This document shows, piece by piece, positions 8,596 to 63,657 of a stretch of 64,000 nucleotides of DNA. Source of the stretch: Rhodococcus coprophilus NBRC 100603 (GTDB lineage Bacteria; Actinomycetota; Actinomycetes; Mycobacteriales; Mycobacteriaceae); contig NZ_BDAM01000012.1 of the NCBI RefSeq assembly GCF_001895045.1, positions 62,001-126,000 of the forward strand. Direction: 5' to 3'. The notes under the pieces are model-generated. The model had not been told where the DNA came from and made no database searches. It saw nothing but the letters and a program-made list of their open reading frames with translations. The translations under genes and the position numbers were made by a program. Position 1 is the first letter of the stretch, and every line of letters begins with the position of its first letter.

Positions 8596-9455
8596 GAGAT
8601 CCCCACTCCCGGAATGGTGGGAACGAGTCCCCACAGCGCGAAGGTGAGCACGACGTCGGTGACTCCGATGGCCAGGATGCTCGTGCGCAACGCACGTCCG
8701 GCAGCACGACCCACCCCTTCAGGTCCGCCGGAGGCATAGAAACCGTAGGCGCAGTGGACGATCGCGACGATCATCGCGAAAACGACCGCCTTGATCAGCG
8801 AGTACCACAGGTCGGACGGCGAAAGTGCGAGGTGGAAGTAGTAATCGTACGTTCCGGCGGAGTTGCCCTGGAAGTTGACGACCACCAGACGGGTGGCGAC
8901 GAACGATCCGAGCAATCCCACCATGTAGATCGGGATCACGCAGACCGCTGCGGCGACCAGACGCGTGCTGGCGAGAAACGGAATCGATCTCACGGCCATC
9001 GCGTCGAGCGCATCGATCTCGTCGGAGATGCGCATGGCGCCGAGTTGCGCCGTGAACCCCGTTCCGACCTTGGCGGCGAGCGCGATGGAGGCCACGACCG
9101 GGGCCAGTTCCCGCGTGTTGGCGATCGCAGAAAGCATGCCCGACAGGGATGTCATGCCGATCAGTTCGAGTCCGCGCTGGGTTTCGACGCCCACCATCAT
9201 CGCGGCCACCGCGGACATCGCGAACACGATGCCGATGGTGCCGCCGCCGGCGAGCAGCGACGCGTATCCGAAGCTGACATCGCCGATGTGGAAGAGCACG
9301 TGCCGGGAGTACCGGCGCAGTGCAGTGGGGATTCCTGCGACCGCCTTGCCGGCGAACACTACCTGCTGCCCCATCGACGCGAAGCCGTCGACCGCCGCGG
9401 CGACCGGACGATGCGCCGCCGAGCGCGCACGGGTGAACGTGGTGTACGAGATCAT
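8592..9455 (-). CDS. yrbEB: YrbE/MlaE-type ABC permease, second copy
   Basis: This 287-residue polytopic membrane protein has the MlaE-family core: GIVFAMSAVAAMMVG, the conserved cytoplasmic segment ANTRELAPVVASIALAAKVGTGFTA with its Glu and Lys residues, ISDEIDALDAMAV, and about five or six membrane helices. The chosen ATG shares one base with the yrbEA stop (TGATG at 9457-9453); the frame is open far upstream but not coding-like there. It pairs with YrbEA to form the permease of the Mce importer. Confidence 0.92.
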   Translation of the reverse strand: MISYTTFTRARSAAHRPVAAAVDGFASMGQQVVFAGKAVAGIPTALRRYSRHVLFHIGDVSFGYASLLAGGGTIGIVFAMSAVAAMMVGVETQRGLELIGMTSLSGMLSAIANTRELAPVVASIALAAKVGTGFTAQLGAMRISDEIDALDAMAVRSIPFLASTRLVAAAVCVIPIYMVGLLGSFVATRLVVVNFQGNSAGTYDYYFHLALSPSDLWYSLIKAVVFAMIVAIVHCAYGFYASGGPEGVGRAAGRALRTSILAIGVTDVVLTFALWGLVPTIPGVGIS

Positions 9456-10264
9456 CAGTAGGTGCCCACCGCGGGAACGAGCACGGTGTACATCTGGGAC
9501 AGAACGGTATTGACGACGAACACCATGACGAAGGCGAGCACCACACCTTCGTTGACAGCGTCGGCGACGCCACTCGGACCGCCCTTGGCATGAAGACCTT
9601 TGAAGGACGCGATCAACGCGGACGTGATGCCGAAGCACGCGGACTTGAACATGGCTGTCGCGAAGTCGGACAACCGGCCGTACTCACCGAGAGTACGGAG
9701 GAACGCTCCCCCGGACCCGTCGTTGAGATAGATCTCGTAGAGGTAGCACGCCGTGACTCCCACGAGTGTCACGAGCGAGCAGAGCATGAGGGAGACGAGC
9801 ACCGACGCGAGCAGCCGGGGCACCACCAGCCGTTCGATCACGTTGAGGCCCATGACCTCCATGGCCTCGATCTCTTCCCGGATCGTGCGGGATCCGAGAT
9901 CCGCGCAGATCGCAGACCCACCGACGCCGGCGAGCATGAGCGCGCAGACCAGCGCGGCCGCCTGCCCCACCACGACGAACGAGACGATCGCGCCGGAATA
10001 GGCTCCCGCGCCGAGCTGGCCGGCCAGCGACCCGACCGATACCGCGATAAGCACGCCGACCGGGAGCATCAGCAGAAGTGCCGGTCCGCTGCACACCTTT
10101 GCGATGAACAGCGACTGGGTGACGGTCTCGGACACCGAGAGACGACGGCGAATCAGGACGCGGACCGTGGCGACGAGAGTCTCGAGGGAGAAACCGACGA
10201 GTGCACCGACCTGGATCGCAAGATCGTGAGCCGGCCCCTTCGGCTTGGGCAACTCGAAAGTCAT
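9455..10264 (-). CDS. yrbEA: YrbE/MlaE-type ABC permease, first copy
   Basis: This 269-residue MlaE-family permease contains ICADLGSRTIREEIEAMEVMGLNVIERLVVPR, the signature cytoplasmic loop of the family, and several long hydrophobic helices (for example GAYSGAIVSFVVVGQAAALVCALM). The ATG at 10264 has a very strong purine-rich ribosome-binding site (GAGAGGGGGGA) directly upstream and is preferred over a GTG six codons earlier. It follows the fadD gene by 66 bases on the same strand, so it is probably co-transcribed. Confidence 0.9.
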   Translation of the reverse strand: MTFELPKPKGPAHDLAIQVGALVGFSLETLVATVRVLIRRRLSVSETVTQSLFIAKVCSGPALLLMLPVGVLIAVSVGSLAGQLGAGAYSGAIVSFVVVGQAAALVCALMLAGVGGSAICADLGSRTIREEIEAMEVMGLNVIERLVVPRLLASVLVSLMLCSLVTLVGVTACYLYEIYLNDGSGGAFLRTLGEYGRLSDFATAMFKSACFGITSALIASFKGLHAKGGPSGVADAVNEGVVLAFVMVFVVNTVLSQMYTVLVPAVGTY

Positions 10265-10330
10265 GTCCCCCCTCTCGTTCACTGGTCCACGGCCCGGTCC
10301 CGATTCTTCTCGTCCGGCCGGGGCAGTGGA

Positions 10331-53195: not shown

Positions 53196-53230
53196 CGAAG
53201 GCGGCCTAGGTTTCCTTGGCCGCCTTCGCG
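53196..53230. terminator. Bidirectional terminator hairpin
   Basis: A 12-bp perfect stem (GCGAAGGCGGCC / GGCCGCCTTCGC) with an 11-base loop overlaps the 3' end of the split glycosylase gene and follows the LLM gene stop. Confidence 0.8.
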
Positions 53231-53694
53231 GCAGCCTTGGCTGCCTTCTTGAACTCGCGCACCTCGAGAAGCGTCTGCTGGTCGACGACATCCGCGATCG
53301 ATCGTCGCGAGTTCTTGTCGCCGTAGGCGCCCGCGGCCTCTCGCCAGCCCTTCGGCTCCACACCGACCTGCTTGCCGAGCAGCGCAAGGAAGATGCGTGC
53401 CTTCTGATCGCCGTAACCCGGCAATGCCTTCAGTCGTTTGAGCACTTCCTTGCCGTCCGGGTCGCCGGACGTCCAGATCGCTGTGGCGTCACCGTCGTAG
53501 TGCTCCACGAGGTACGCGCACAACGAGTGGATTCGTTCACCCATCGATTTCGGAAACCGGTGCACGGCCGGCGGCTGCGCACACACCGCGACGAAATCGT
53601 CGGGGTTCATTTCGGCGATCTCGTGGACATCGAGTCGGCCGAGCCGATCCGCGATCTTCTTCGGCCCCGCGAAGGCGGTTTCCATGGGGACCTG
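53206..53694 (-). pseudogene. HhH-GPD-type base-excision DNA repair protein, C-terminal fragment
   Basis: This is the 3' part of a gene split by the satellite. It reads QVPMETAFAGPKKIADRLGRL..., with KSMGERIHSLCAYLVEHYDGD, KRLKALPGYGDQKARIFLALLGKQ (the helix-hairpin-helix) and a Lys/Ala-rich end. Homology to intact family members stops exactly at the GACCTG core; sequence upstream of it belongs to the element. Joined to the fragment at 63556-63657 it gives an unbroken 194-codon gene. An internal ATG at 53685 or an element-derived ATG at 53799 could still start a truncated product of about 159-197 residues, but the N-terminal domain would be missing. Confidence 0.88.
53689..53694. other. attL core (GACCTG) with flanking imperfect inverted repeat
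   Basis: The GACCTG core matches attR at 63556-63561. Inside the element it is flanked by ATATGT (53698-53703) and ACATAT (53719-53724) around a GC-rich centre, an inverted repeat of the sort recognised by integrase domains. One mismatch-containing extension (GACCTG-T/C-TGAT) is also shared with attR. Confidence 0.8.
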
Positions 53695-53790
53695 TTGATA
53701 TGTGCCCACGGACTGTGGACATATAACGATCGACCCCCGAGGTGTTAGCGCACCTGCTGGGGGTCTAGGCCACAACGGAGATCCGCCGTC

Positions 53791-54432
53791 ATGAACCATG
53801 GAAGCAGTGTAACCACAGCTACCCGCCCTCGTCCTCGGACGTTGTCACGACACGACCGGGAGTGGATCTACGCCAATTGCTGCGCCCGTCTGGAGGCGCA
53901 CGGAGTCAATCCTCGGCGGGCGAAGACGGTTACCGCCGTCTACGAGTACCTGGAACGGCTCTCTGCTGTCTTCCCTGACAACACCGACGCAGACGATCCG
54001 ATGGTGAACCCTTCGGTCGAGCGGATCGCAGAAGAGACCCGGTCGAGCCTCCGAGGCGTGAAGCACGCCCTTGCTCGTCTGGGAGATCTCGGGCTCGTTC
54101 GTACCGTCCGGCGTACGGGCCGGGCGGCATGGCGTGCGCTCACCAATTCGATTGGCCGGATGCTCGCGAAGCGAGGTGCAAACAACACACGTCGCGAGGT
54201 GCAAACAAGCACCCGCGCAGGTCAGCCCCCCTATATATCTCTTTATGATCAGAAAAATGATCAGCGGGCAGGGTCGGCACCGGCGGAACGTCGCGGATGG
54301 GCGTCGTCTACGCCGACGACCCCGACGCCTCCGAGGTTCGTCCCGACGCCTGCAACCGGTTCGTCACCGGAACTCCGGGCCAAGCTGCGGACGGGCTGGC
54401 GGAACCTCGCGAAGCGAGGGGATCGGTTCTGA
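53791..54432 (+). CDS. Winged-helix (HTH) phage-type protein, possible replication initiator or repressor
   Basis: This 213-residue basic protein is the first gene inside attL. Residues about 68-110 form a helix-turn-helix (VNPSVERIAEETRSSLRGVKHALARLGDLGLVRTVRR), like the DNA-binding domains of phage and plasmid replication initiators or MarR-type proteins. The C-terminal 80 residues are Pro/Thr/Arg-rich and look disordered. GGAGA lies nine bases before the ATG. In the excised circle it would be divergent from the integrase. Whether it initiates replication at the 61.1-kb iterons or controls lysogeny cannot be decided by sequence. Confidence 0.7.
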   Translation: MNHGSSVTTATRPRPRTLSRHDREWIYANCCARLEAHGVNPRRAKTVTAVYEYLERLSAVFPDNTDADDPMVNPSVERIAEETRSSLRGVKHALARLGDLGLVRTVRRTGRAAWRALTNSIGRMLAKRGANNTRREVQTSTRAGQPPYISLYDQKNDQRAGSAPAERRGWASSTPTTPTPPRFVPTPATGSSPELRAKLRTGWRNLAKRGDRF

Positions 54433-54808
54433 GAGCCACGCTGAGGGTCTTACGGGAACTCGGTGGCAGGTGGCGTCACACTGTGCTCGAGGCCATGGTC
54501 GGTGCATCCCGCCACGACACGCCGTACGGGCCCCTGAACGTGCACGTCGGCAAGGTGCGACCTGGGAATATCACACCTGTAACTCACAAGATCCTGGGTT
54601 CTGTGTATCTGTCGGACACAAGGTGTAGTGTCTAGACCGCCAGACAGGACAAGGCCCCCACCCGGGGGTTAGATCCCCGAGTCGGGTGCGCTTGAATGCA
54701 TTTCTCCGATGCCTTTCGAGCGTAACTCAGGCTAGCTTGCTCCTCCATACGGGGGGTGGGTTTCACGGGATCGTTCTTGATTTCTCCGGCGGAATGGGAG
54801 GTGGGGTC
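54433..54808 (+). other. Intergenic region with hairpin leader, no accepted gene
   Basis: An open frame covers 54297-54635, but it begins inside the preceding gene and has no start signal of its own, so it is not called. GTGTATCTGTCGGACAC near 54603-54619 has GTGT/ACAC ends and sits ahead of TAGTGTCTAGA, which may be a -10 region. A stem CACCCG...CGGGTG with an inner GGGG/CCCC lies at 54659-54688. The tract may be the promoter and leader of the two small basic-protein genes, or a structured RNA. Confidence 0.4.
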
Positions 54809-54958
54809 ATGAACCCCATCCGTTCAACTCGCGTGTCCCGCAGCACCAAGACCGTTCGTGTTCCGGTGCGGATCAAGAGTGGTAGTACCACCACGACGAA
54901 GTCTGTGCCTGTGAAGGTCAACACGGTCACCCGCACGACCACGATTCGGGGGCGGTGA
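54809..54958 (+). CDS. Small basic Thr/Arg/Val-rich protein (49 aa)
   Basis: The ATG at 54809 has a strong GGAGG seven bases upstream. The product is 49 residues with repeated Arg/Lys-Thr-Val units (TRVSRSTKTVRVPVRI, KSVPVKVNTVTRTTTIRGR), no hydrophobic segment, predicted pI very high. It is two bases before the next small gene. Its function is unknown; an alternating basic/Thr pattern suggests a beta-hairpin or nucleic-acid binder. Confidence 0.7.
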   Translation: MNPIRSTRVSRSTKTVRVPVRIKSGSTTTTKSVPVKVNTVTRTTTIRGR

Positions 54959-54960
54959 AG

Positions 54961-55077
54961 ATGAGTAAGGGCAAGGGCTCCGGGAAGGCGCGCAGTGCCA
55001 TCACCGGAAAGTACGTGAGCAAGTCCTACGCGACCTCTCATCCGAAGACAACCGTCGTGGAAGGCAAGAAGAAGTAA
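54961..55077 (+). CDS. Small Lys/Ser/Gly-rich protein (38 aa), actinophage-type
   Basis: The sequence begins MSKGKGSGKARSAITGKYVS and ends HPKTTVVEGKKK. The 'SA.TG.YV....A..HPKTTV.E' pattern is one I recall in many very short actinobacterial and actinophage proteins of unknown function. It lies two bases after the preceding small gene, so it is translationally coupled or co-translated, and is followed by a terminator hairpin. Too small for routine gene calling. Confidence 0.72.
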   Translation: MSKGKGSGKARSAITGKYVSKSYATSHPKTTVVEGKKK

Positions 55078-55083
55078 GGGGCC

Positions 55084-55117
55084 GGTGCTGGGAGTTGCCT
55101 CGGTGGCTCCCAGCACC
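55084..55117. terminator. Terminator hairpin between converging satellite genes
   Basis: A perfect 11-bp stem (GGTGCTGGGAG / CTCCCAGCACC) with a 12-base loop starts seven bases after the small-protein stop. Confidence 0.82.
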
Positions 55118-55167
55118 TACCTCTATCCGGAAGTCTGCTTGAGCGTCCAGGTAGCTACGGCATGGCG

Positions 55168-55194
55168 CGAGTAGTCGAGTAGTCGAGTAGTCGA
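55168..55194. repeat. Tandem octamer repeat CGAGTAGT x3
   Basis: Three exact head-to-tail copies of CGAGTAGT followed by CGA lie in the non-coding gap just downstream of the head-closure gene. Possible recognition site or simple slippage tract. Confidence 0.75.
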
Positions 55195-55202
55195 CTCTGC
55201 GA

Positions 55203-55550
55203 TCACCTGCGGAGCATCACGTACTCGGCTCGCGCCGTACGCGGCGAGCCACTGAAGATCTGCGGGTCTCCGTCGAGCGCGTACCGCTTGCCTCTCCACT
55301 CGACCTGCGACTGAGCACCGAGCAACTCGGGGTAGCCGACCAGGCGCAACCGGTACTTGATCGAGGTCTCAAACCCGATCTTCTGTGTCTCCGGGCTGGC
55401 GCTCATCACGCCGATGTTGACCGGCTGCACAACAGCCTTGAGGACGATTCCCACCTTCGACGGCTTGGTGAACTTGTTGCCGTCTTCGTCGATGGTCAGG
55501 GTCTCGGGGTAGACCGTGACGGTCTCGTTTCCACGGTTGAGGATGCTCAC
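55203..55550 (-). CDS. Phage head-closure / head-tail joining protein
   Basis: This 115-residue beta-rich protein (VTVYPETLTIDEDGNKFTKP, FETSIKYRLRLVGYPELLGAQSQVEW, DGDPQIFSGSPRT) is like the small head-completion proteins encoded after the connector in HK97-type phages. GTG at 55550, preceded by GGCAGGTGG, starts two bases after the connector stop. A longer open frame runs upstream into the connector gene. It would seal the packaged capsid and provide the tail-binding surface, which is the interface a satellite needs to accept a helper tail. Confidence 0.7.
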   Translation of the reverse strand: MSILNRGNETVTVYPETLTIDEDGNKFTKPSKVGIVLKAVVQPVNIGVMSASPETQKIGFETSIKYRLRLVGYPELLGAQSQVEWRGKRYALDGDPQIFSGSPRTARAEYVMLRR

Positions 55551-55552
55551 GA

Positions 55553-55954
55553 TCAGCCACCTGCCCCGAAGAACGACGACTCCCGGCGCGGTGCCACGAG
55601 GTTCGGCACCAGCGAGTGCATCTTGCTCGGTCGAACACCGAGCGTCTGCCACTCCTCGGGGAGCAGCCGTAACGTCCCGTCGGCGGTGTAGGCCTTCTGA
55701 TACGAGAACCCACCGTCCGACTCGGAGACGAGCCCGTCTCCGTGCAGAACCACCCGTAAGACAGCCTCAGCCTCGATGTCGACCACGTCTGCCTGGTCGA
55801 TGTCTCCGGCTGCGATCTGTGAGGCCAGATCCGGGATCCGGCGAACGATCATGCGTTCGACCTGTTCGAGTCGACGTGCGACCATCGCGGTTTCCTCGGG
55901 CGTCAGCTCGCGCCCGAGTACTGCCTGGACATCCTCAGCGGTTGCGTGAGCCAT
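55553..55954 (-). CDS. Phage head-tail connector (Gp19/Gp15/Gp42-like)
   Basis: This 133-residue helical protein (VQAVLGRELTPEETAMVARRLEQVERMIVRRIPDLA, DIDQADVVDIEAEAVLRVVLHGDGLVSESDGGFSYQ, then LRLLPEEWQTLG) matches the Gp19/Gp15/Gp42 head-tail connector pattern of actinophages. It overlaps the start-proximal tail of the 41-residue gene by 20 bases. In phages this ring attaches under the portal, yet no portal gene is visible in the element. Confidence 0.8.
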   Translation of the reverse strand: MAHATAEDVQAVLGRELTPEETAMVARRLEQVERMIVRRIPDLASQIAAGDIDQADVVDIEAEAVLRVVLHGDGLVSESDGGFSYQKAYTADGTLRLLPEEWQTLGVRPSKMHSLVPNLVAPRRESSFFGAGG

Positions 55955-56060
55955 CGCGCATCTCCTTCCGGTTGGTCTTCAGAACGGAGAGGAGCTGCTT
56001 CACGTTCAGCTCCGGGTGACCACGCCGTGGTCGGCGCAGTGTGTAGTTCTTACGTGGCAT
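55935..56060 (-). CDS. Small basic protein (41 aa)
   Basis: The ATG at 56060 has GGAGG eight bases upstream. The product begins MPRKNYTLRRPRRGHPELNV, continues KQLLSVLKTNRKE and ends DGSRNR. It overlaps the upstream gene by 11 bases and the connector gene by 20 bases, in different frames, as packed phage genes do. Function unknown; Arg/Lys-rich N-terminus could bind nucleic acid. Confidence 0.65.
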   Translation of the reverse strand: MPRKNYTLRRPRRGHPELNVKQLLSVLKTNRKEMRDGSRNR

Positions 56061-56337
56061 CTGGGATGCCTCCTGTCAGTACTTGGTGATAGAAGTCGGC
56101 AGCCGACAAACCGGCTGCGTTCATTACGGGAGCGGCCAGCTCGTGCCCGCGACCAGGCACAGAGCCATTGAGCCAGTCGGCTACGTTGCCCCTCAGCGAC
56201 TGGTAGTCACCGGGGGTACACAGACCCCCGAGTAACCGGAGATCGTTCGGGAGAAGGGCAGCCAGAGCCTCAGGGCTCGAGGCTGAAGGCTTGCGATTAC
56301 GTCGCCTGGTCTGCGACATCCCAGTGCCTCGGGCCAT
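56050..56337 (-). CDS. Hypothetical satellite protein (95 aa)
   Basis: This 95-residue protein has a basic N-terminus (SQTRRRNRKPSAS) and a mainly helical remainder (SPEALAALLPNDLRLLGGLCTP, ADWLNGSVPGRGHELAAPVM). GAGGAGG is seven bases before the ATG, and it begins three bases after the TerS-like stop. Position in the head-gene block suggests a packaging or capsid-related role, but no family was recognised. Confidence 0.75.
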   Translation of the reverse strand: MARGTGMSQTRRRNRKPSASSPEALAALLPNDLRLLGGLCTPGDYQSLRGNVADWLNGSVPGRGHELAAPVMNAAGLSAADFYHQVLTGGIPDAT

Positions 56338-56339
56338 GG

Positions 56340-56636
56340 CTAGTCCTCCTCGGCAGGTGCGAAGTTCAGTCGAGCGAGGAGCTGGGCGAGCAGGGCCCGC
56401 TGGACGCGGACCTCAGCGATCAGCGGATGGATCACCATTTGGCCGGCACTGCCTCGGACTGTCAGTGGCTGGCCAGCAGTCGCACGGTCCAGCTCGGCGA
56501 TGGTGTCGGTTACGCAGCAGGTGTGAGCGAGGATCTCCAGCTTGGCTGGCTCGTTGTCCAGGTCGTACTCGTCCAGGACGGTCTTCCAGAGTTTCTGGCC
56601 TGCCGACCCGAAACCCTTCGGCATTCGTGGCCGCAT
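56340..56636 (-). CDS. Terminase small subunit-like protein (P27-type)
   Basis: This 98-residue protein (KGFGSAGQKLWKTVLDEYDLDNEPAKLEILAHTC, TIAELDRATAGQPLTVRGSAGQMVIHPLIAEVRVQRALLAQLLARL) matches the short TerS proteins of actinophages, which read 'G..LW..i..eydl...e...L...c...d.id.L' and 'HPL..E.R..r..la.LL..L'. TerS recognises the pac/cos site; with no large subunit in the element it would redirect a helper's terminase to satellite DNA (inference). Order is unusual: it lies after the capsid gene. Confidence 0.8.
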   Translation of the reverse strand: MRPRMPKGFGSAGQKLWKTVLDEYDLDNEPAKLEILAHTCCVTDTIAELDRATAGQPLTVRGSAGQMVIHPLIAEVRVQRALLAQLLARLNFAPAEED

Positions 56637-57059
56637 AGGCGTTTCAACCCCTTAATGAAAAGTAGGAAATAGCCCTTGATCAGGGCATCTGGTGAAAAAT
56701 CAGGTTCTGAAAACCGCACGTGATGTCTCGGGCGCATAACGTCCCGGTCAAAGAGGGGGGTGGGAGGGGATACCCCCTGGGTAGGGGTCGCACCGTGTCT
56801 GACCTGCGTAAACGTCGGATCGATCGGTGTCACGAGGCTGATCCAGCCTGCAGGCAGAGACTCGACACCAGACAACCTCAAGCAGAGGCCGGACTACCCG
56901 ACCTAGAGACCTCGGCAGGACTCCCACCGAGGACCAGGCCTTACCTCCTCGGCCTCCAGCCTCAGGGCCTAGACCCCACCTGACCAGACCTCCACCCGAG
57001 CTACCTCGGCTCGGGGGCCTGGGCACCCTCCTGGGCATAGAGCCCTGGCTTGTGCAGCC
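56637..57059 (-). other. Non-coding gap upstream of the TerS-like gene
   Basis: The 423 bp hold no open frame with a start signal and family resemblance. Notable are a GGGGGGTGGGAGGGG tract at 56754-56768 on the plus strand, CCTCGG repeats around 56910-57010 and a CTCGG/CCGAG-rich area that could form stems. Candidate cis elements are a packaging (pac/cos) site or a promoter for the TerS operon; neither can be proven by eye. Confidence 0.4.
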
Positions 57060-57377
57060 TTAGCCGGTAGTGACCCGTCCTCTGCGGATGTCCTGCCACT
57101 GCTTCGGGGTCACGCCTGCCTCCATAGCCAACGTGCGGAGCTTGAACCCGAGGTCGAGATACCGGCTGCATTCGTCGCTGAGGGCGACTACCTGTGCCCA
57201 CAACTCGTTGGTCAGCTCGAAGTCTCCGAGTGCCTCACAGGCCCGTTGGGCGTTCTCCAGCTCGTGCGCCACTGTGCGGCAGAGGTAACAGCAGTACTTG
57301 CGCTCCTCGAAGGCTGTACCCTGGCAGCCTTCGCGCTGACACGGAACGAACGTACGGGGGTTACTGGTGTTGGCCAT
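57060..57377 (-). CDS. Zinc-finger-like satellite protein (105 aa)
   Basis: This protein has Cys pairs near the N-terminus (PCQREGCQGTAFEERKYCCYLCRTV), consistent with a small zinc-binding module. A helical body (AHELENAQRACEAL, LWAQVVALSDECSRYLDLGFKLRTL) and a C-terminal KQWQDIRRGRV follow. GGAGAG precedes the ATG. Proteins of this style are common in actinophages. Possible regulators of transcription or of helper functions, but no function is known to me. Confidence 0.75.
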   Translation of the reverse strand: MANTSNPRTFVPCQREGCQGTAFEERKYCCYLCRTVAHELENAQRACEALGDFELTNELWAQVVALSDECSRYLDLGFKLRTLAMEAGVTPKQWQDIRRGRVTTG

Positions 57378-57500
57378 GGCGGGTCTCTCCTTTGTGAGGG
57401 CGTCTGAGACGCCAGAAGGGCACCTCGTAAGGTGCCCCTCCAGCGTTGTATTCAGTTGTGCCCGAACAGGATCAGTCGTTCGGGGTATGTCAAGTTGCTA

Positions 57501-58331
57501 TCAGGCAGCAACAGCGTGCAGGCGCACGATGCCCGACGGGTTGGCATGGCCGAACCCGATTCGAGCCACGGCGCGGACCTGAGTCGCGTCCGAGCCAAAG
57601 GCGGCATCGGTGGACATGGTCACCGCGGTGCCCTTGCGAAGGACGGTCATCACCTGCGAGGAGTCCAGGGCCCAGGCGTTGCCAGCGGTCACCGCAGGCG
57701 AGACCAGGGCGATAAGACCAGCCAGCTTGATGCCGTCGTCCACGCTCTCGATCAGGCCCTGGTTCGAGCCGGAAGCGGTCTTGGCCTTCGAGAGGGCCAG
57801 GGCCACGTCAGGGGCCAGAACGATATGGGTCAGCTCGGCACCGTTGGCCATCGCCTTCGACTTGGCATCGTGGACGTAGTCGAGCGTGGTCCAGCCTGCG
57901 GTCGTATCGACGACCTGGACACCCTGGACCGAGAGGAGACCGCTCGGGCCGTGGGTGACGGTGTCACCGAAGAACGCGGCATCGACCTTCTTGCCGATGT
58001 CACGGGCCAGTGCCTTACCGATCATCGCGGCCACCGCCGGATCGGTGTCCTCGACCGACTCGTTGGAGACCTGGGTCAGACCGGCGACCTTGGTCGGGAC
58101 CACGACGACCTCGTTGGTCACCGGATCGACGAGCGTGATCGGGGTGTTCTCGGCGTACCAGCCGGTCTCGGGATCGGTGACCAGGATCGGGAAACGAACC
58201 TGATGCTTACCGGTGTTGACGACGGTTGCAGCCTGGAACGCAACCGCCTTGTCGGTGATCTCGGCATCGACGAGCTTGCCGTAGTCCTCGGGGGTGAAGG
58301 CGTTCTGCAGGGCGGTGTTGGTGGTAGCCAT
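57501..58331 (-). CDS. HK97-type major capsid protein
   Basis: The 276-residue product has the HK97-fold capsid core: TVVNTGKHQVRFPILVTDPETGWYAENTPI near the N-terminal arm/E-loop, VAGLTQVSNESVEDTDPAVAAMIGKALARDIGKKVDAAFFGD (spine helix), and the C-terminal P-domain (SPAVTAGNAWALDSSQVMTVLRKGTAVTMSTDAAFGSDATQVRAVARIGFGHANP). There is no long N-terminal delta domain; a separate scaffold gene lies upstream, as expected. GGAGGA is before the ATG. It should form a small capsid able to hold about 10 kb. Confidence 0.93.
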   Translation of the reverse strand: MATTNTALQNAFTPEDYGKLVDAEITDKAVAFQAATVVNTGKHQVRFPILVTDPETGWYAENTPITLVDPVTNEVVVVPTKVAGLTQVSNESVEDTDPAVAAMIGKALARDIGKKVDAAFFGDTVTHGPSGLLSVQGVQVVDTTAGWTTLDYVHDAKSKAMANGAELTHIVLAPDVALALSKAKTASGSNQGLIESVDDGIKLAGLIALVSPAVTAGNAWALDSSQVMTVLRKGTAVTMSTDAAFGSDATQVRAVARIGFGHANPSGIVRLHAVAA

Positions 58332-58406
58332 GAAATGTCCTCCTGGACAATAGGAAAGGCCCCTGGCTCGATTGCCAGAGGCCCATAGGGGTAGTGAATC
58401 AGGAGA

Positions 58407-58468
58407 CGGTCACAGACCGAATCCCATTGAGGCACAGCCTCGTTTGTGTTGAGCAGCGGTCACAGACC
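58407..58468. repeat. Direct repeat CGGTCACAGACC x2 between capsid and scaffold genes
   Basis: Copies at 58407-58418 and 58457-58468, 50 bp apart, lie in the non-coding gap; GGTAGTG and CACTACC near the outer edges are inverted. A regulatory or terminator role is possible. Confidence 0.6.
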
Positions 58469-58480
58469 ACTACCCGAAGA

Positions 58481-58939
58481 TCACTTGAACATCGCATCCC
58501 ACGACGGGGTGGGCTGCTTCGGCTTCGAACCTCCGGTGCCCTGGGAAGGGTCGAACGCGGGTGCGTTCTTCCGGAGGCCGGGACGCTCGGTCAGGACAGC
58601 CGCTACATCGGCGGCCACCTTCTCGGGGTCGACGTTGCCGTCGTCGTCCAGGTAGTCGGTGAGGGTGTTACCCGAGAGGGTGAACAAGTCGCTCCCCATC
58701 GCCAGCTCCGCGCTGGCGATCCGCTCGACCTCGGCACGCTGCAGCCGTTCGAACCGAGCCTGCAGGGCGGTCACCGTCTCGCGGGCCTCGTTCCGCTCTA
58801 CCCGGTACCGGGCTTCTTTGTTCAGCTTCTGAGAGCCGTCCTCGGCTCCAGGGGTACCCGTGGGTGCCTTATCGGTAGGCACCCCGTCAGCGTTGGACTC
58901 AGGGCCGGGAACAGGGGTCTGGATGTCTTGGTTCTGCAT
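58481..58939 (-). CDS. Capsid scaffolding protein
   Basis: This 152-residue acidic protein is directly upstream of the capsid gene in transcription order. It has a Pro/Gly/Thr-rich start, a central coiled coil (KLNKEARYRVERNEARETVTALQARFERLQRAEVERIASAE), a DYLDDDGNVDPEKVAADVAAVL segment and a Lys/Pro-rich C-terminus ending SWDAMFK. Coiled-coil core plus basic C-terminal tail is typical for scaffolds of HK97-type capsids. AAGGAGA precedes the ATG. Confidence 0.85.
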   Translation of the reverse strand: MQNQDIQTPVPGPESNADGVPTDKAPTGTPGAEDGSQKLNKEARYRVERNEARETVTALQARFERLQRAEVERIASAELAMGSDLFTLSGNTLTDYLDDDGNVDPEKVAADVAAVLTERPGLRKNAPAFDPSQGTGGSKPKQPTPSWDAMFK

Positions 58940-58951
58940 ATCTCTCCTTGG

Positions 58952-59161
58952 CTATGGGTAGCGGCGCATGAACAGCGCCCGTCGTAGGTCGGTCTCGTCG
59001 ATGTCGTCGTCCAGCCCGAGCCGGGCGAGGATCACGTAGCGGTTCGGGTGTCCGTGCTCGAACCACGCGAGGTCTCCGGCCTCGTGGATGGCTCGGACGT
59101 AGTTCTCAGACCGCGTCAGATGCAGCTGGAACGCTGCTTCCTGCTCGTGTGCGTTCGGCAT
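58952..59161 (-). CDS. Hypothetical satellite protein (69 aa)
   Basis: From ATG 59161, two bases after the preceding stop, the product begins MPNAHEQEAAFQLHLTRSEN and contains RLGLDDDIDETDLRRALFMRRYP. It is acidic in the centre with a basic end. A TTG at 59176 is an alternative start. It is 12 bases upstream of the scaffold gene and presumably co-transcribed. Function unknown. Confidence 0.65.
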   Translation of the reverse strand: MPNAHEQEAAFQLHLTRSENYVRAIHEAGDLAWFEHGHPNRYVILARLGLDDDIDETDLRRALFMRRYP

Positions 59162-59163
59162 GC

Positions 59164-59313
59164 TCAGTCCGTCCAATGTGTGACGGTCAGACCTTCGTAC
59201 GGGTGTCCGTGGTGGGATCCGAGATGGACGGCAGCCTCAGGGCTGACTTTCCACGTACGTGCAGGTGCTCCGTGCTCAGCAGCCCGTACGGCTGCGTCGA
59301 TCAGTGCGTCCAT
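59164..59313 (-). CDS. Small hypothetical satellite protein (49 aa)
   Basis: The ATG at 59313 has AAGGAGA upstream. The product begins MDALIDAAVRAAEHGAPART and ends GLTVTHWTD, with WKVSPEAAVHLGSHHGHPYEG in the centre. It is a compact, His-rich protein without known family. The stop is two bases from the next gene's ATG, so the two are coupled. Confidence 0.65.
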   Translation of the reverse strand: MDALIDAAVRAAEHGAPARTWKVSPEAAVHLGSHHGHPYEGLTVTHWTD

Positions 59314-59385
59314 GTGATCTCTCCTTGGATATGCGAAAGACCCCGTTGTCGGCGGGGCCTCGGTTGGCGGATGTCAAGTTCTGGA

Positions 59386-59634
59386 TCAGCTCGAACACGG
59401 ATCAGGGAGCTGGGCCCCCAGCTCGGAGATGCGGGCCTCAGCAGCCCGCAGCCGGATGCGAAGGTTCTTGGCCTCGTTGTTCAACTTCCGGACCTTCTCG
59501 GACTTCGTGTCGAAGTTCTCCGCTGTATGCAGCCGCTTCCTCAGCTCGAAGCCTTCAGACCGCAGCTTGAGGATCCGGTCCTGCCAGTACGCGGGCAGCT
59601 CGTGGAGCTGGGCGTTCTCAGGGATGTTTGCCAT
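59386..59634 (-). CDS. Coiled-coil satellite protein (82 aa)
   Basis: AGGAGGT lies seven bases before the ATG, a near-perfect ribosome-binding site. Residues about 22-75 form a heptad-rich coiled coil (LKLRSEGFELRKRL, KSEKVRKLNNEAKNLRIRLRAAEARISEL). No family recognised; it may multimerise with capsid-assembly or helper proteins. Confidence 0.75.
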   Translation of the reverse strand: MANIPENAQLHELPAYWQDRILKLRSEGFELRKRLHTAENFDTKSEKVRKLNNEAKNLRIRLRAAEARISELGAQLPDPCSS

Positions 59635-59714
59635 GGGGTACCTCCTGGGGTTGTCGCGGCATCTGGCCGCGTGTTTGGTGCTGTACGACCTCCGTGGGCC
59701 GTGCAGTAGGTGAG

Positions 59715-59969
59715 TCAGTGTGTGTCGAACGCGCCGGAGGCGTACGCCTCGGTCAGTTGCCGAACTACCTCGGCAGGTTCGACGGGTACGCCGTCGTGTT
59801 GGAACTGGACGCCCGCGCTCTCGAAGGCGCGGACAACGGTCCAGGCGGCAGACTTACCGATCCGTTGGCGCTTCTCACGCTCGGACCTGCATCGGCGGCA
59901 GTAGCCACCGTTGTCTCGGTCGGCGGATGTTCGGATCTCGTGCCCCTGAGGGCACTGGTTGACGGGCAT
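59715..59969 (-). CDS. Zinc-ribbon satellite protein (84 aa)
   Basis: Starting at ATG 59969 (AGAGAGG five bases before), it begins MPVNQCPQGHEIRTSADRDN, then GGYCRRCRSEREKRQRIG. The CPQGH...YCRRC spacing is a short zinc ribbon, followed by a helical C-terminus (AWTVVRAFESAGVQF, VRQLTEAYASGAF). An upstream ATG at 60002 is in frame but lacks a ribosome-binding site. Likely DNA-binding or regulatory; function unknown. Confidence 0.72.
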   Translation of the reverse strand: MPVNQCPQGHEIRTSADRDNGGYCRRCRSEREKRQRIGKSAAWTVVRAFESAGVQFQHDGVPVEPAEVVRQLTEAYASGAFDTH

Positions 59970-60349
59970 TAGTGCCTCTCTTTCAGCATCGTTAGTACTC
60001 ATGGTTTGGGTCAAATGAAAAGGGCCAGAACGTATTCGACGTTCTGACCCGAAGATTGTGGGGTACCCCTCGGTCTGCCGTAACAGACCGAGGGCTGACT
60101 TCCCTCAAGAAACACACGGAACGGTCACCCGCCGTTCCTATCCGCTGCTGCCACAGCGGCTTGCCGAGGTCGATCACCTCGAGAAGTTCAGGCGGTCGAT
60201 GGGGAGAGCCACCGACCGACCTCCGGGTGCTGGAGAACACCCGGATGCGGCGATCACCGACTGCAGGTCGGGATCAGCTCGCAAGCTTGCAAGGGGGTGT
60301 CTTTCCCCTTCGCAATATCAGTACAAAACTGGAACACAGTATTTGACCC
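59970..60349. promoter_or_regulatory. Non-coding gap with two strong hairpins
   Basis: Hairpin one at 60022-60050 (GGGCCAGAACG / CGTTCTGACCC, one mismatch, loop TATTCGA). Hairpin two at 60068-60093 (CCTCGGTCTG / CAGACCGAGG, perfect 10 bp, loop CCGTAA). The rest, with GCAAGCTTGCAAG at about 60282-60294, has lower GC than its surroundings. It separates the two minus-strand blocks, so a terminator for the upstream gene and a promoter/operator for the structural block are the likely contents. No gene is accepted. Confidence 0.55.
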
Positions 60350-60880
60350 CTAAGCGATGTAACTCATATTTGGGACGGTCCTGATCCAGGATCCATGAGG
60401 CTCGCCGGCCGAGGTGCCAGTGCCGTTACGCGACCCCTTCGGCCTACCCGGCTGAGGATTCCATCCGGGGTACCGCTCCTGCATGGCTTCCTTCCGGCGC
60501 TTGCGTAGCGCCGCCATCCTCTCCTTCGCAGCGGCATTGTGTGCCACGTGCCGCGCTTCAGAGCACTCTGTGCAGTACTTCGGCCACCGCGCGGTGTCGG
60601 TGCTTCCGTCCTTCTTGTGCGAGATCTTCCGGCGCGTGTGGACGAGTCCGCCGCAGTCAGCGCACGGGCCGTAGTAGACGCGGAATCCCCAGAACTGGAC
60701 CCAGGCTCCGCCCGTCGACGTCACCTCTTGCCGGTACACGTGGTCCGGGTTCTCGCGTCGCCACTTGTCGACCTTGTTCGGCACCAGCTTCGCGGCCTGG
60801 TTGCCCAGTGGGCGGACGAACCGGATGCCGGATGCCGAGGTCTCGATCTCGCCGAGGCGTGCTGTTGCGGTGGTGTTCAT
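60350..60880 (-). CDS. Phage-type zinc-binding protein (176 aa)
   Basis: The ATG at 60880 has AGGAGAGAC upstream. The N-terminal half (GIRFVRPLGNQAAKLVPNKVDKW, STGGAWVQFWGFRVYYG) is followed by a Cys4 module, CADCGGLVHTRRKISH ... YCTECSEARHVAHN, and a long basic helix (KERMAALRKRRKEAMQERYPG). The shape is reminiscent of HNH-like or zinc-ribbon actinophage proteins, but the His/Asn catalytic set of HNH nucleases is not clear. First gene of the leftward block. Confidence 0.72.
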   Translation of the reverse strand: MNTTATARLGEIETSASGIRFVRPLGNQAAKLVPNKVDKWRRENPDHVYRQEVTSTGGAWVQFWGFRVYYGPCADCGGLVHTRRKISHKKDGSTDTARWPKYCTECSEARHVAHNAAAKERMAALRKRRKEAMQERYPGWNPQPGRPKGSRNGTGTSAGEPHGSWIRTVPNMSYIA

Positions 60881-61110
60881 GTCTCTCCTCATGATGTGGT
60901 GTGCTGGATGTCATAGCTAGATGCGGGCCCCAGACCCGCAGCTCATCGGTGGTTACCGGTCGGTAAGTTCGCGCCGTGGCTGGCATCTGCCGCACGAAGG
61001 CTCACGAGCCGTCCCGGCCCCTCCACACTTGATGGGGCCTAGGGATGGCGAGGCCGAGGAAGGCAGATGGCTGACACCAAAAGAAAGCGCACCGAAGGTG
61101 TCCGATTACG

Positions 61111-61370
61111 CCATTCTTTGAATGGCAGAAGAATTGTCAGAGAGCCATTCTTTGGGTCTTCCTGGAGCCATTCTTGACCCTCCAGATGCGCCATTCTTTG
61201 CGCTCCAGATGGCACCTCCAGGTGCCTCCAGATACCCCCCTGAGGGGGATATTCTTTGACCCTCAAAGAATGGTTATTGGGGCCCCTTAAAGGGGTATAT
61301 TATAATAATCTCTAGATAGGGATTTCTTAAGGAAATCCCCTAGTTCGGGAACCCCCTAAAGGGGGTTCCC
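61111..61370. other. Putative replication origin: iterons, AT-rich tract and hairpins
   Basis: CCATTCTTTG occurs at 61111-61120, 61145-61154, 61168-61176 (one T short) and 61191-61200, with the last three spaced 23 bp. ATTCTTTGA-CCC-TCAAAGAAT (61251-61271) is an inverted pair of the same word. Then come CCCCTT-A-AAGGGG (61283-61295), an AT tract TATATTATAATAATC (61296-61310), GGGATTTC/GAAATCCC (61319-61339) and a perfect 10-bp stem GGGAACCCCC/GGGGGTTCCC (61347-61370). Iterons next to an AT-rich unwinding element is the classic layout of a Rep-dependent origin. The flanks (60881-61110 and 61371-61859) hold no accepted gene. Confidence 0.65.
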
Positions 61371-61738
61371 TCACTCTGATCCTGCAACTGGAAAAACCAG
61401 ATCAAAGATTTCCTTGTTACGCGCGCCCGCGTAGGGAGGCAAAAATCCCTCCTGACCAGCGTATACGCTGAAACGGGCGTCTAGCGTCCACGCTGACGCA
61501 CTGAAGGGTGCTACCCACCCACTCACCCACACATAGGTAGGTTCGGCCCTCAGCGTGGCCCCTGGGGGCCACTACGGCGGTCTTCAGATTGCAGGCATGA
61601 CGACATGTCCGCCGGATCGGACGGACCGATTCCGACAGTACCCCCGTCGAGATCGGGAGGCAAGAGATTGCTATCGGTCAGAGAATATACGGGCGCGGCT
61701 AATTTGGAGTGCCGGCCCGATTCAATAAAGAAACAAGT

Positions 61739-61757
61739 CGACAATTCCGAATTGTCG
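61739..61757. promoter_or_regulatory. 19-bp perfect inverted repeat downstream of integrase
   Basis: CGACAATTC-C-GAATTGTCG in an unusually AT-rich stretch, about 100 bp past the integrase stop. Probable binding site for an element-encoded regulator; also could be part of a terminator. Confidence 0.5.
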
Positions 61758-61859
61758 AATCGGTACTCCGACGGAATTGGAATTGCAGGATTCCAGGTAC
61801 GGTCCAATTAATCGTAGTCGCAACAATTGCAGGGGCCTGCCTCTTTTGGCCGGCCCCGG

Positions 61860-63539
61860 TCAGTCGACCTTTATGGTGGCCAGGTCGGGCTTCGGGAGCC
61901 CGTCGAGGTCCAGACGCTCCGGCAGCTCGGGCATGTTCTTCGGCGGCATCATCGCCATCTGCCGCAGCCCGTCGCGCATGTGCTTCGGGTACACGACGAA
62001 ACGGGCACCGTGGTCGATCATCAACTGACGCTTGTCGGAGGTCTCCCAGACCTCGCGGTACGTCTGGTCTGTCTCCTCGGTGACCCAGCCGGACGGACGC
62101 GATGGCGTGGCGGCGAGCTGGTCGCGTTTGGCGACCTGAGCCTTCATCCGTTCCGCCCACTGACGTACGTCCTCGGGCGTGGTCAACAAGCCCATATCGG
62201 ATTCCATCCGCAACCGGTCGAGGGTTGCTAACACCTTCTCCAGCTCGGCAGCGTGGTCCTCACCCTGGACGAACACGCGTCGGGTGACCTTGGTGTCTCC
62301 CCATTTGGCCAGGAACATCCGTTCCAGCCTGACATCGGCGTCGTCGGCCCGGACGCCCGTGCCTTTGCAGTTGAGCGGAGTACGCCCGCACCGGTAGTAG
62401 CGATGCTCCGCAGTGACCTGTCCATTGGAGTTCTTCCTGACAGACGCCTGTTGTGCCAGCGAGGCCCCACACGGGCCTTCACCGCATGCTGGGCAGCCTG
62501 GGCAGCCGCAGATTCCTACACCGAGCATCGGGTTGGTGGACGCGGTCGGCGTACGACCGTTGAGCTTGCGGAGGTGGGCAGCCTCTTGGAGCTGCTTCCA
62601 GGTGGCAGCGTCGAACGTCGGGGGTGCGAGCCGGATCGGCTCTCCCTCGGGGTCGAGCACGACGACTGCAGCCGACCCCTTGCCGGTCATCTTCAGACCC
62701 TGCGTACGCGGCGAGGTCATGGCGTCGATCACCGTGCTGGTTGTCCACGGTCGGGACTTCGGAGGGTTGCCCTTGGCCACCCGAGCCCGGTCCATATTCG
62801 TCAGGGCCGCACCATCGCGGCACTCGCAATCCAGGACGTGTGCATCGGTACATCGCGGATCGGTGTACCCAGCGTTCAGCCACGCTGCGATGCGGATATA
62901 TGACCAGCCGTCGAGCAGACGGCGTGCCATCGAATGCAGCAGCCGGTAACCGATCTCGTCGGTGGCCAGGCCCTTGCCCTTACCGCTGGGATGCTCCACG
63001 ACCTTGAACCCGAGCGGAGGGACACCCGATGCCCACCGATCCATCTGCCTCAGCGCCCGGTGTGAGTCCTGGGCGCGGGACTTGAACCGGTTCAGTTCGA
63101 GCTGGGCGAAGAACGAGCCGAGATAGACGAACAGCTCAGCCATCATCGCGTCGATGCCTTTGGAGACTCCGGGCCGGTAGTCGAGCGTGAGACCGTCGTC
63201 GGCGAACGCAACGACCTTGTGTCGCTCCTCAGCCCACCGGGCGAAGTCGACACAGTGCCGGGTCGACCTGAATGCGCGGTCCATCTTCGACCAGACGATC
63301 ACATCCCACTTGGAGGCACCCTCGTCGGTCAGCCAGGGACCGAGGTCGGGCCGGTCCTCGGGCCGCTTCTCAGCCGACACGCCGAGATCCTCGAAAGAAC
63401 CTACGATCTCGTATCCCTTGGCTTCCGCCCACTTCCGGGCGGTTTCAAGCTGCGCCAGATGCGACACTTTCTGCGGTCCCTGGACTACTGATACGCGAGC
63501 GCCAACGATTGCGCGTACTCTGTGGGGAAGTTCGGTCAC
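61860..63539 (-). CDS. int: Large serine recombinase (integrase)
   Basis: This 559-residue protein has an N-terminal resolvase catalytic domain with nucleophile Ser17 (GARVSVVQGPQKVS) and WSKMDRAFRS with catalytic Arg. The recombinase domain (WASGVPPLGFKVVEHPSG, YRLLHSMARRLLDGWSYIRIAAWLNAGY) and zinc ribbon (CGCPGCPACGEGPCG ... YYRCGRTPLNC) follow, then a coiled coil (EDHAAELEKVLATLDRLRMESDM, DVRQWAERMKAQVAKRDQL) that controls directionality. The GTG start is only 17 bp from the attR core. All domains look intact, so the enzyme is probably functional. An excision factor was not identified. Confidence 0.95.
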   Translation of the reverse strand: MTELPHRVRAIVGARVSVVQGPQKVSHLAQLETARKWAEAKGYEIVGSFEDLGVSAEKRPEDRPDLGPWLTDEGASKWDVIVWSKMDRAFRSTRHCVDFARWAEERHKVVAFADDGLTLDYRPGVSKGIDAMMAELFVYLGSFFAQLELNRFKSRAQDSHRALRQMDRWASGVPPLGFKVVEHPSGKGKGLATDEIGYRLLHSMARRLLDGWSYIRIAAWLNAGYTDPRCTDAHVLDCECRDGAALTNMDRARVAKGNPPKSRPWTTSTVIDAMTSPRTQGLKMTGKGSAAVVVLDPEGEPIRLAPPTFDAATWKQLQEAAHLRKLNGRTPTASTNPMLGVGICGCPGCPACGEGPCGASLAQQASVRKNSNGQVTAEHRYYRCGRTPLNCKGTGVRADDADVRLERMFLAKWGDTKVTRRVFVQGEDHAAELEKVLATLDRLRMESDMGLLTTPEDVRQWAERMKAQVAKRDQLAATPSRPSGWVTEETDQTYREVWETSDKRQLMIDHGARFVVYPKHMRDGLRQMAMMPPKNMPELPERLDLDGLPKPDLATIKVD

Positions 63540-63555
63540 GGTGCAAGGGTACCGC

Positions 63556-63561
63556 GACCTG
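63556..63561. other. attR core (GACCTG)
   Basis: This is the same six bases as attL. The chromosomal side reads into the glycosylase codons for LLDQQV, the element side into the integrase start region. The reconstructed attB keeps the reading frame. Confidence 0.8.
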
Positions 63562-63657
63562 CTGATCGAGCAACATCCCGATGAGCAACGCGGCCGGATT
63601 CTGCGAGAGCAGAGCGTCGGCGTCGGGATCCCCCACGAGATTCAGCGTCGATTCCAT
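63556..63657 (-). pseudogene. HhH-GPD-type DNA repair protein, N-terminal fragment
   Basis: The 34 codons begin MESTLNLVGDPDADALLSQN and reach GMLLDQQV, the expected N-terminus of the HhH-GPD base-excision family. Past the core the frame continues into element DNA (AVPLHRDRTS...) and stops at 63445. The fragment carries the gene's original start, so the promoter here now reads toward the integrase. Confidence 0.88.

Follow-up and report, generated by a model that had tools for sequence, protein, structure and literature searches.

How could a 9.9-kb element that seems to encode a phage head, and not the motor that fills one, come to be packaged? The question is raised by positions 53689-63561 of the window, the whole 64,000-nucleotide stretch of Rhodococcus coprophilus NBRC 100603 DNA under analysis, where an earlier note made from the sequence alone had proposed a satellite that makes its own head and hijacks the portal, motor and tail of a helper phage. 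The most probable reading, at roughly 80%, is that the element is an integrated, capsid-encoding phage satellite of the cohesive-end (cos) type, which would contribute its own small head and its own small terminase (TerS) and would obtain the large terminase (TerL), portal, motor and tail from a helper resembling phages of Clusters A and CA. The genes absent from the element, together with relatives of the same layout, support the division of labour that had been proposed.

Borders and gene content of the element

Counted on the sequence, the element measures 9,867 bp and is bounded by two CAGGTC cores, the attR core at 53689-53694 (minus strand), where it meets the 3' part of an HhH-GPD base-excision-repair gene, and the attL core at 63556-63561 (minus strand); these cores confirm the borders given in the earlier note. 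The HhH-GPD gene is split into a 3' part at 53206-53694 (minus strand; PF00730, 6e-6) and a 5' part at 63556-63657 (minus strand), the latter recognised from the list of open reading frames (ORFs) and the empty-site comparison and given a presumed start codon. In another genome of the genus (G012) the gene is uninterrupted, with CTCGATCAGCAGGTCCCCATGGAAACC at the junction, and represents the empty site, and a strict pattern for this site matches 12 of 17 other genomes of the genus.

On the minus strand the order is serine integrase, small genes, scaffold, HK97-type capsid, a zinc-finger-like protein, cos, TerS, a small protein, the head-tail adaptor Ad1 and the head closure protein Hc1, and the plus strand encodes an O-like replication protein with two further proteins of small size. 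The PHROG/Pfam scan, which covered 20 of the 126 ORFs of the window, 19 of these within the element, bore out the capsid-building set and the integrase of the earlier note. These comprise, all on the minus strand, a scaffold of 152 aa (58481-58939; phrog_4708, 9e-8) in which a short C-terminal stretch resembles phage scaffolds, the HK97-type major capsid protein of 276 aa (57501-58331; phrog_10, 9e-22; PF05065, 5e-21), TerS of 98 aa (56340-56636; phrog_1496, 2e-18), Ad1 of 133 aa (55553-55954; phrog_137, 1e-34; PF09355, 8e-15), Hc1 of 115 aa with a presumed GTG start (55203-55550; phrog_320, 2e-28), and a large serine integrase of 559 aa (61860-63539; phrog_95, 3e-94; PF00239 and PF07508).

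The absence of TerL, portal, maturation protease, tail and lysis genes, which had also been claimed, held up: none of these families gave a match at E up to 1 in the 20 ORFs scanned. The element's ORFs of at least 200 aa are the integrase (559), the capsid (276), the O-like protein (213) and antisense frames only, which therefore leaves no room for a normal portal or TerL, and no ORF of the size of a tape measure protein and no tail-family match occurs in 53689-63561. Hidden Markov models (HMMs) built for this work from 11 TerL, 11 portal and 3 protease proteins gave no match in any of the six reading frames, whether in the element or in 17 relatives, the protease model having no positive control. 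The TerL and portal models matched contigs L029 and L035, which are themselves members of those models; as a fairer control, the TerL of phage Kuwabara and the portal of phage D29 were used as queries and detected TerL and portal alike, at 26-34% identity, in six IMG/VR contigs, with no match in any other compared locus. Two portal families had no match in the R. coprophilus genome and did match control genomes, and the TerL and portal of phage Espica also went unmatched there, in a search without a positive control. Since the genome gave no portal-family match, the helper probably comes from outside.

The cos site and the likely helper

The strongest evidence on the helper is the putative cos site just upstream of TerS, which is new in this analysis and absent from the observations of the earlier note. 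It lies at 56733-56781 (minus strand) and combines a CCCAGGGGG..CCCC block with the core GACCGGGACGTTATGCG (56733-56749), as recognised from matches to phage ends and from motif scans. The 141 bases upstream of the window's TerS match nine phage records, Gordonia phage Kuwabara and Arthrobacter phage MrSmee included; in eight of these the match is no further than about 60 bases from the right end of the linear record. The same stretch of L014, one of the related loci described below, matches 43 records. In 38 of them (26 Gordonia and 12 Mycobacterium records) the match again falls no more than about 60 bases from the right end; in one more Mycobacterium record it is 410 bases away, and in the remaining four it lies elsewhere. 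A CCCAGGGG..CCCC block and then GACCGGTCGGTTATGCG are found across or at the ends of phage Herbertwm and of three of four 11-kb Mycolicibacterium aichiense records (see below). The core of the window is identical in L014 and in genome G208, and agrees with those of D29 and Herbertwm at 14 of 17 positions and differs at three.

A compound cos pattern applied to 895 kb returned 13 distinct sites; one is in G208, and the other 12 belong to satellites, where they separate capsid from TerS. Linear phage records, being cut at cos, were unable to match; variants of cos were seen by eye in L022, L027 and L033. In IMG/VR the motif scan returned 12 contigs. Six, of 8.3-12.5 kb, all carry satellite genes; the other six measure 51-76 kb, and Cluster A-type genes are present in four of these in the stretch examined. 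The cos site stands beside TerS in 19 of 20 satellites, a count in which the TerS of L023 was seen by eye only and many members had been picked by TerS or cos.

Behind the core, the flank TGTACGGGTT occurs with at most one mismatch in seven of eight phages (not Kuwabara; L071 is nearly identical to Herbertwm, so that about six are independent) and in none of the 20 satellites, where a T-rich block and then TerS follow instead. Between the core and TerS of the window lies a near-palindrome, GCCCTGATCAAGGGC (56672-56686, minus strand), which is a candidate TerS site and is found within three mismatches in the window, L014 and L036 only. Across 401 genomes of the family the cos pattern is present at 16 sites, spread over 15 genomes, as against four matches of a reversed control pattern. 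Nine of these sites lack the phage flank, and eight of the nine have TerS nearby (the window, L014, L017 and L018 included); the seven with the phage flank show no TerS or capsid match in their 3-kb loci.

Comparison of the individual proteins suggests that the pieces expected to meet a helper portal, motor or tail resemble those of a helper, and that the piece governing shell size (the capsid) and the piece that picks the DNA (TerS) do not. Ad1 is 54% identical to that of D29, 49% to that of Herbertwm and 48% to that of Espica, with 42%, 45% and 39% for Hc1, and neither protein matches Kuwabara. The matches of the scaffold C-terminus span 20 residues in Herbertwm (60%), 14 in Espica (71%) and 30 in D29 (40%), and the integrase is 70% identical to that of Herbertwm. 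The capsid, in contrast, has one marginal match among the compared phages (D29, 24%, E 0.007), and in the whole phage collection it matches 12 satellites and 24 Arthrobacter records (about 29% among the matches listed); TerS does not match the TerS of Herbertwm, Espica or Kuwabara and is about 40% identical to that of mycobacteriophages Bernal13 and Mendokysei. D29 (49 kb) and Espica (46.5 kb) carry TerL, portal, tail and lysis genes, the set that marks temperate phages of Clusters A and CA and that the element appears to lack. Rhodococcus phages of Cluster CA are temperate and related to Cluster A, according to the portion of the source available (PMC13313380).

Under the satellite reading, a Cluster A/CA-like siphophage would infect the cell from outside, and the element would excise and replicate with its own initiator and the enzymes of the helper. 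Satellite capsid and scaffold would form a small head around the helper portal, which the helper-like C-terminus of the scaffold perhaps recruits. Satellite TerS would bind a satellite-specific sequence beside cos and bring in helper TerL, which would cleave the cos core and package about 9.9 kb into the head, and the helper-like Ad1 and Hc1 of the satellite would seal the head and let a helper tail attach. By scaling from a T=7 shell with room for 40-50 kb, a T=3 shell would be expected to take about 10-14 kb.

Several observations weigh against this reading, or at least against the helper it names. Single E-values of the 141-base matches to phage ends are only 0.1-5, so that the position of the matches, and not their score, is the evidence for cos. 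The end of D29 has the same core GACCGGTCGGTTATGCG behind a different block, the core of Espica, a Rhodococcus phage of Cluster CA type, differs from that of the window at 9 of 17 positions, and no phage with the exact core GACCGGGACGTTATGCG was found in sequence scans that included IMG/VR. Two of the six large motif-bearing contigs from IMG/VR look like chance matches. Around the core, the M. aichiense records were deposited with ends that vary by tens of bases, and those of one record, WillG, lack the core, so these are not proven physical ends. Finally, the earlier note had called for a helper with matching head-tail connectors among Rhodococcus genomes and phages, and no Rhodococcus helper was found. 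Two candidates were set aside on the way: the sole exact-core match in IMG/VR (L041, from a 42.4-kb contig) is taken as chance because its record has no CCCAGGGG block and no Ad1 relative, and G208, which joins the core of the window to a phage-type flank, is not a full helper prophage because 35 phage and 7 window proteins match only an Ad1 fragment and an integrase in 79.5 kb.

The helper of the same satellite might instead lie outside Clusters A and CA, for example among phages of the Kuwabara type, the resemblance at cos then reflecting a wider class of cos sites. The matches at the ends of Kuwabara and MrSmee fit such a helper, as does TerS, which is closer to its counterpart in mycobacteriophages of 42-44 kb (Bernal13, for example) than to the one in Herbertwm, a point that likewise counts against a helper from Clusters A and CA. 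This possibility is nevertheless considered rather unlikely, as Ad1 and Hc1 match D29, Herbertwm and Espica and not Kuwabara, as all 1021 records matched by Ad1 are named Mycobacterium, Rhodococcus, Gordonia, Mycolicibacterium or Fromanvirus, and as Gordonia phage Soups has an Ad1 match and a cos match together.

Relatives and the persistence of the layout

A search with the capsid found 14 loci in genome contigs and 13 in IMG/VR (L028 repeats L015), the nearest by capsid being Rhodococcus sp. OK519 and Prescottella defluvii (82%), R. triatomae (79%) and a Mycobacterium metagenome-assembled genome (71%). Fourteen loci, some on cut contigs, were counted as of the same kind (L014-L019, L021-L023, L027, L033 and L036-L038), and come from rhodococci, mycobacteria and viral contigs. 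By tblastn, scaffold and capsid are present in 14 of 14, TerS in 13, Ad1 in 13 (not L017), Hc1 in eight and a serine integrase in 12, with TerS and Ad1 together in 12; L023 has no tblastn match for TerS, and one of its ORFs resembles TerS by eye. Neither TerL nor portal was detected in any of the 14 by tblastn or by the HMMs. An integrase of the window's type is found only in L019, L021 and L036 (67-72%) and in the later loci L068 and L075 (59-63%), and HhH-GPD sequence adjoins L019, L036 and L038. Excluded from the count were L020, L024-L026, L039 and L040, which have only the capsid, or capsid and scaffold, in common and on which the HMMs were silent.

Six further contigs from IMG/VR (L029-L032, L034 and L035; 7-12 kb) have a capsid 56-61% identical to that of the window together with their own TerL and portal, and would be elements of the same capsid lineage resembling capsid-forming phage-inducible chromosomal islands (cf-PICIs). 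In the capsid tree these six contigs, the TerL-positive ones, cluster together with support (98/97) and are nested within the TerL-negative ones; the tree is rooted on a very long branch, and for that reason it is not read as showing which way the change went.

Twelve records of 10.9-11.1 kb deposited as M. aichiense phages (OR387110-OR387121, including Alyssa1, WillG, JSForest2 and Maddie1) match the capsid, TerS and Ad1. In the four whose annotation was examined, a small terminase, a small protein, Ad1, a stopper, a serine integrase, a helix-turn-helix protein and a capsid are found as in the element, with a scaffold given by name in JSForest2 and recognised by similarity in the others, and no TerL or portal is annotated; three of the four have a Cluster A-type cos core, as the element does. 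The element thus appears to share the layout of this group, with cos followed downstream by TerS, small protein, Ad1 and Hc1, with scaffold and capsid upstream, and with a serine integrase and no TerL or portal. TerS is 41-57% identical between the window and these records, and the capsid only 40%. A further difference is a 651-aa tape measure protein encoded between capsid and cos in the M. aichiense records and lacking in the window. It is related to the 807-aa protein of Herbertwm (63% over about the first 350 residues in WillG), and from the two lengths a shorter tail is predicted for the M. aichiense elements, which suggests that satellites encoding a tape measure change tail length. The comparison also suggests that these 11-kb "phages" in GenBank are satellites. 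No paper on OR387110-OR387121 was found in a search that left preprints and most subscription journals outside. The satellites that encode tape measure proteins comprise L004 (8355-10310), L005 (8075-10030), L006 (8337-10292), L070 (3660-5792) and L082, the G046 locus (119-919), and L014-L040 gave no tblastn match for one.

These relatives bear on whether the element is a deletion remnant, that is, a formerly complete small phage in decay after the loss of TerL, portal and tail. Such remnants of phages are common, and the element does lack most phage genes. The earlier note had named complete phages of 15-40 kb as the closest relatives that would speak for a remnant; instead, the closest relatives found are L014, L015, L027 and L016, which have the same layout. 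The recurrence of scaffold and capsid in all 14 loci and of TerS with Ad1 in 12, the place of cos beside TerS, and the 11-kb versions deposited as phages also argue against decay. The genes are open, and five of them appear to be under purifying selection, with dN/dS (nonsynonymous to synonymous substitution rates) between the window and L014 of about 0.14 for TerS, 0.21 for the capsid, 0.32 for Ad1, 0.35 for the scaffold and 0.41 for the small protein, and of 0.17-0.46 in other pairs, values for which the start codons of some genes were guessed and one pair of which had saturated dS. A decaying remnant is accordingly held to be quite improbable.

Least credible of all is a domesticated capsid island, or a system akin to a transfer agent, devoted to packaging host DNA or to serving the host and not itself, since the capsid and TerS without a motor, and searches that found no helper, are set against an integrase with att sites, a cos site of the element's own, the two portal families unmatched in the R. 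coprophilus genome, and a scattered presence in the genus (capsid match in 3 of 18 genomes, the two others only 29-32% identical).

Several of the same-kind loci carry candidate defence cargo, namely a Ser/Thr kinase like Stk2/PD-T4-6 in L015 (13267-14469), an Mrr restriction enzyme in L017 (6787-7662) and an HNH effector-like protein in L036 (9144-10247); a candidate kinase like Stk2/PD-T4-6 in L037 (9372-10577) has a similar start only.

Known systems, a wider class and remaining features

In the part of the source available, cf-PICIs encode capsid, protease, portal, connectors and both the large and the small terminase (PMC10690885). They have been described as dependent on a helper for tails only. 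The element resembles them in being integrated, in having its own capsid and connectors and presumably in relying on a helper tail; of their portal, protease and two terminase subunits it shows TerS only, a comparison in which the protease HMM had no positive control. As a portal and TerL of its own appear to be lacking, it is not filed as a cf-PICI, and it is better regarded as a probable lean variant of the capsid-forming satellites. The earlier note had seen here a distinct, leaner strategy: the missing portal and TerL stand, but the strategy is not unique, in view of the M. aichiense elements and of satellites in the accessible parts of two reports (PMC10654092; PMC10448857).

Candidate Mycobacterium PICIs, phiRv1 and phiRv2 among them, are defined in the first of these by an integrase and a capsid gene, and some have serine integrase, terminase and scaffold genes as the element does (PMC10654092, in part). 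With an integrase and a major capsid gene in one region, the element would be counted among them, although the portion available describes no cos, helper match or class lacking portal and TerL. The E. coli satellites, as far as the text available goes, carry capsid and decoration genes and no terminase genes, and have tape measure genes like the M. aichiense elements; they differ from the element in phylum, in their RepA/T5orf172 link and in lacking terminase and head-tail adaptor genes (PMC10448857). The Mulch and Flayer satellites of Streptomyces are, like the element, actinobacterial, capsid-encoding satellites of siphophages, but have both terminase subunits and a portal, low GC and direct terminal repeats (PMC10690885, in part). 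No paper on an actinobacterial satellite class without portal and TerL was found, preprints and most subscription journals lying outside the search.

The balance tips slightly towards a widespread class of Mycobacteriales satellites with divided parts, in which capsid, TerS and the sequence adjacent to cos would be the satellite's own, and the cos core, Ad1, Hc1 and the scaffold C-terminus would copy those of the helper, so that a 10-kb element needs no portal, motor or tail; capsid-less, cos-only elements, in which the phage sequence beside cos is retained, would exploit the same type of helper. If this is true, a satellite can make its own shell while relying on the helper for portal, motor and tail, and the switch between helper and satellite DNA would lie in TerS and a few dozen bases beside cos. 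The acceptance of a helper portal by a foreign capsid would then become a testable question, and the concrete prediction is that the helper resembles phages of Clusters A and CA and has a cos core that matches.

Two small elements with approximate borders, at G005:C1 ~406400-415500 (L096) and G208:C36 ~57000-66500 (L064, L065), have a Cluster A-type cos with TGTACGGGTT and an AAA_25 ATPase, and searches of them for capsid, TerS, TerL and portal gave nothing. The former ends at a second copy of the HhH-GPD 3' part and has a GmrSD-type restriction gene and no integrase match, and the latter has an integrase 41% like that of Espica. Both are possibly satellites that dispense with a capsid, carry only cos and use the same type of helper.

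Of the remaining genes of the element, those on the plus strand encode a replication-initiator (O-like) winged-helix protein of 213 aa with weak matches (53791-54432; phrog_391, 7e-6; phrog_270, 2e-5), a small basic protein (54686-54958) with related ORFs in L014 (48%) and L027 (40%), and a 40-aa basic protein (54955-55077) 76% identical in L014 and 94% in L027. The others are on the minus strand. A conserved satellite protein between TerS and Ad1 (56050-56337) has related ORFs in L014, L015, L016 and L027. Two conserved satellite proteins look zinc-binding, the 105-aa zinc-finger-like protein right beside cos (57060-57377; CxxxxC..CxxxC), kept in several satellites, and a zinc-ribbon protein (60350-60892) 73-74% identical in L014 and L015. 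Comparison with relatives identified small conserved satellite proteins of 74 aa (58952-59176) and 49 aa (59164-59313), and an 82-aa coiled-coil-like protein (59386-59634) has weak matches only and related ORFs in relatives. A second zinc-ribbon protein with a partial HNH-family match (59715-60014; phrog_826, 1e-4) is kept in some satellites, and a hypothetical ORF (61039-61266) has a related ORF in L015 (52%).

PADLOC had no match on three window proteins, nor had an Rfam scan of the window or a search of plasmid DNA with its sequence, and no attP similarity above threshold was seen between the element and eight phages or relatives. Two intergenic sites, at 57482-57494 and 59366-59378, are stoperator-like by the L5-type consensus; both end in TGTCAAG, and they are alike over 21 bases. 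In the remaining 53.7 kb of the window TGTCAAG occurs once. The sites are not conserved in relatives, 17 related elements having 0-3 of mixed form, and so control by a Cluster A repressor is not claimed. Elsewhere in the window, at about 1881-10282, the ORF reading showed six mce-like genes in a run with two YrbE-like ones.

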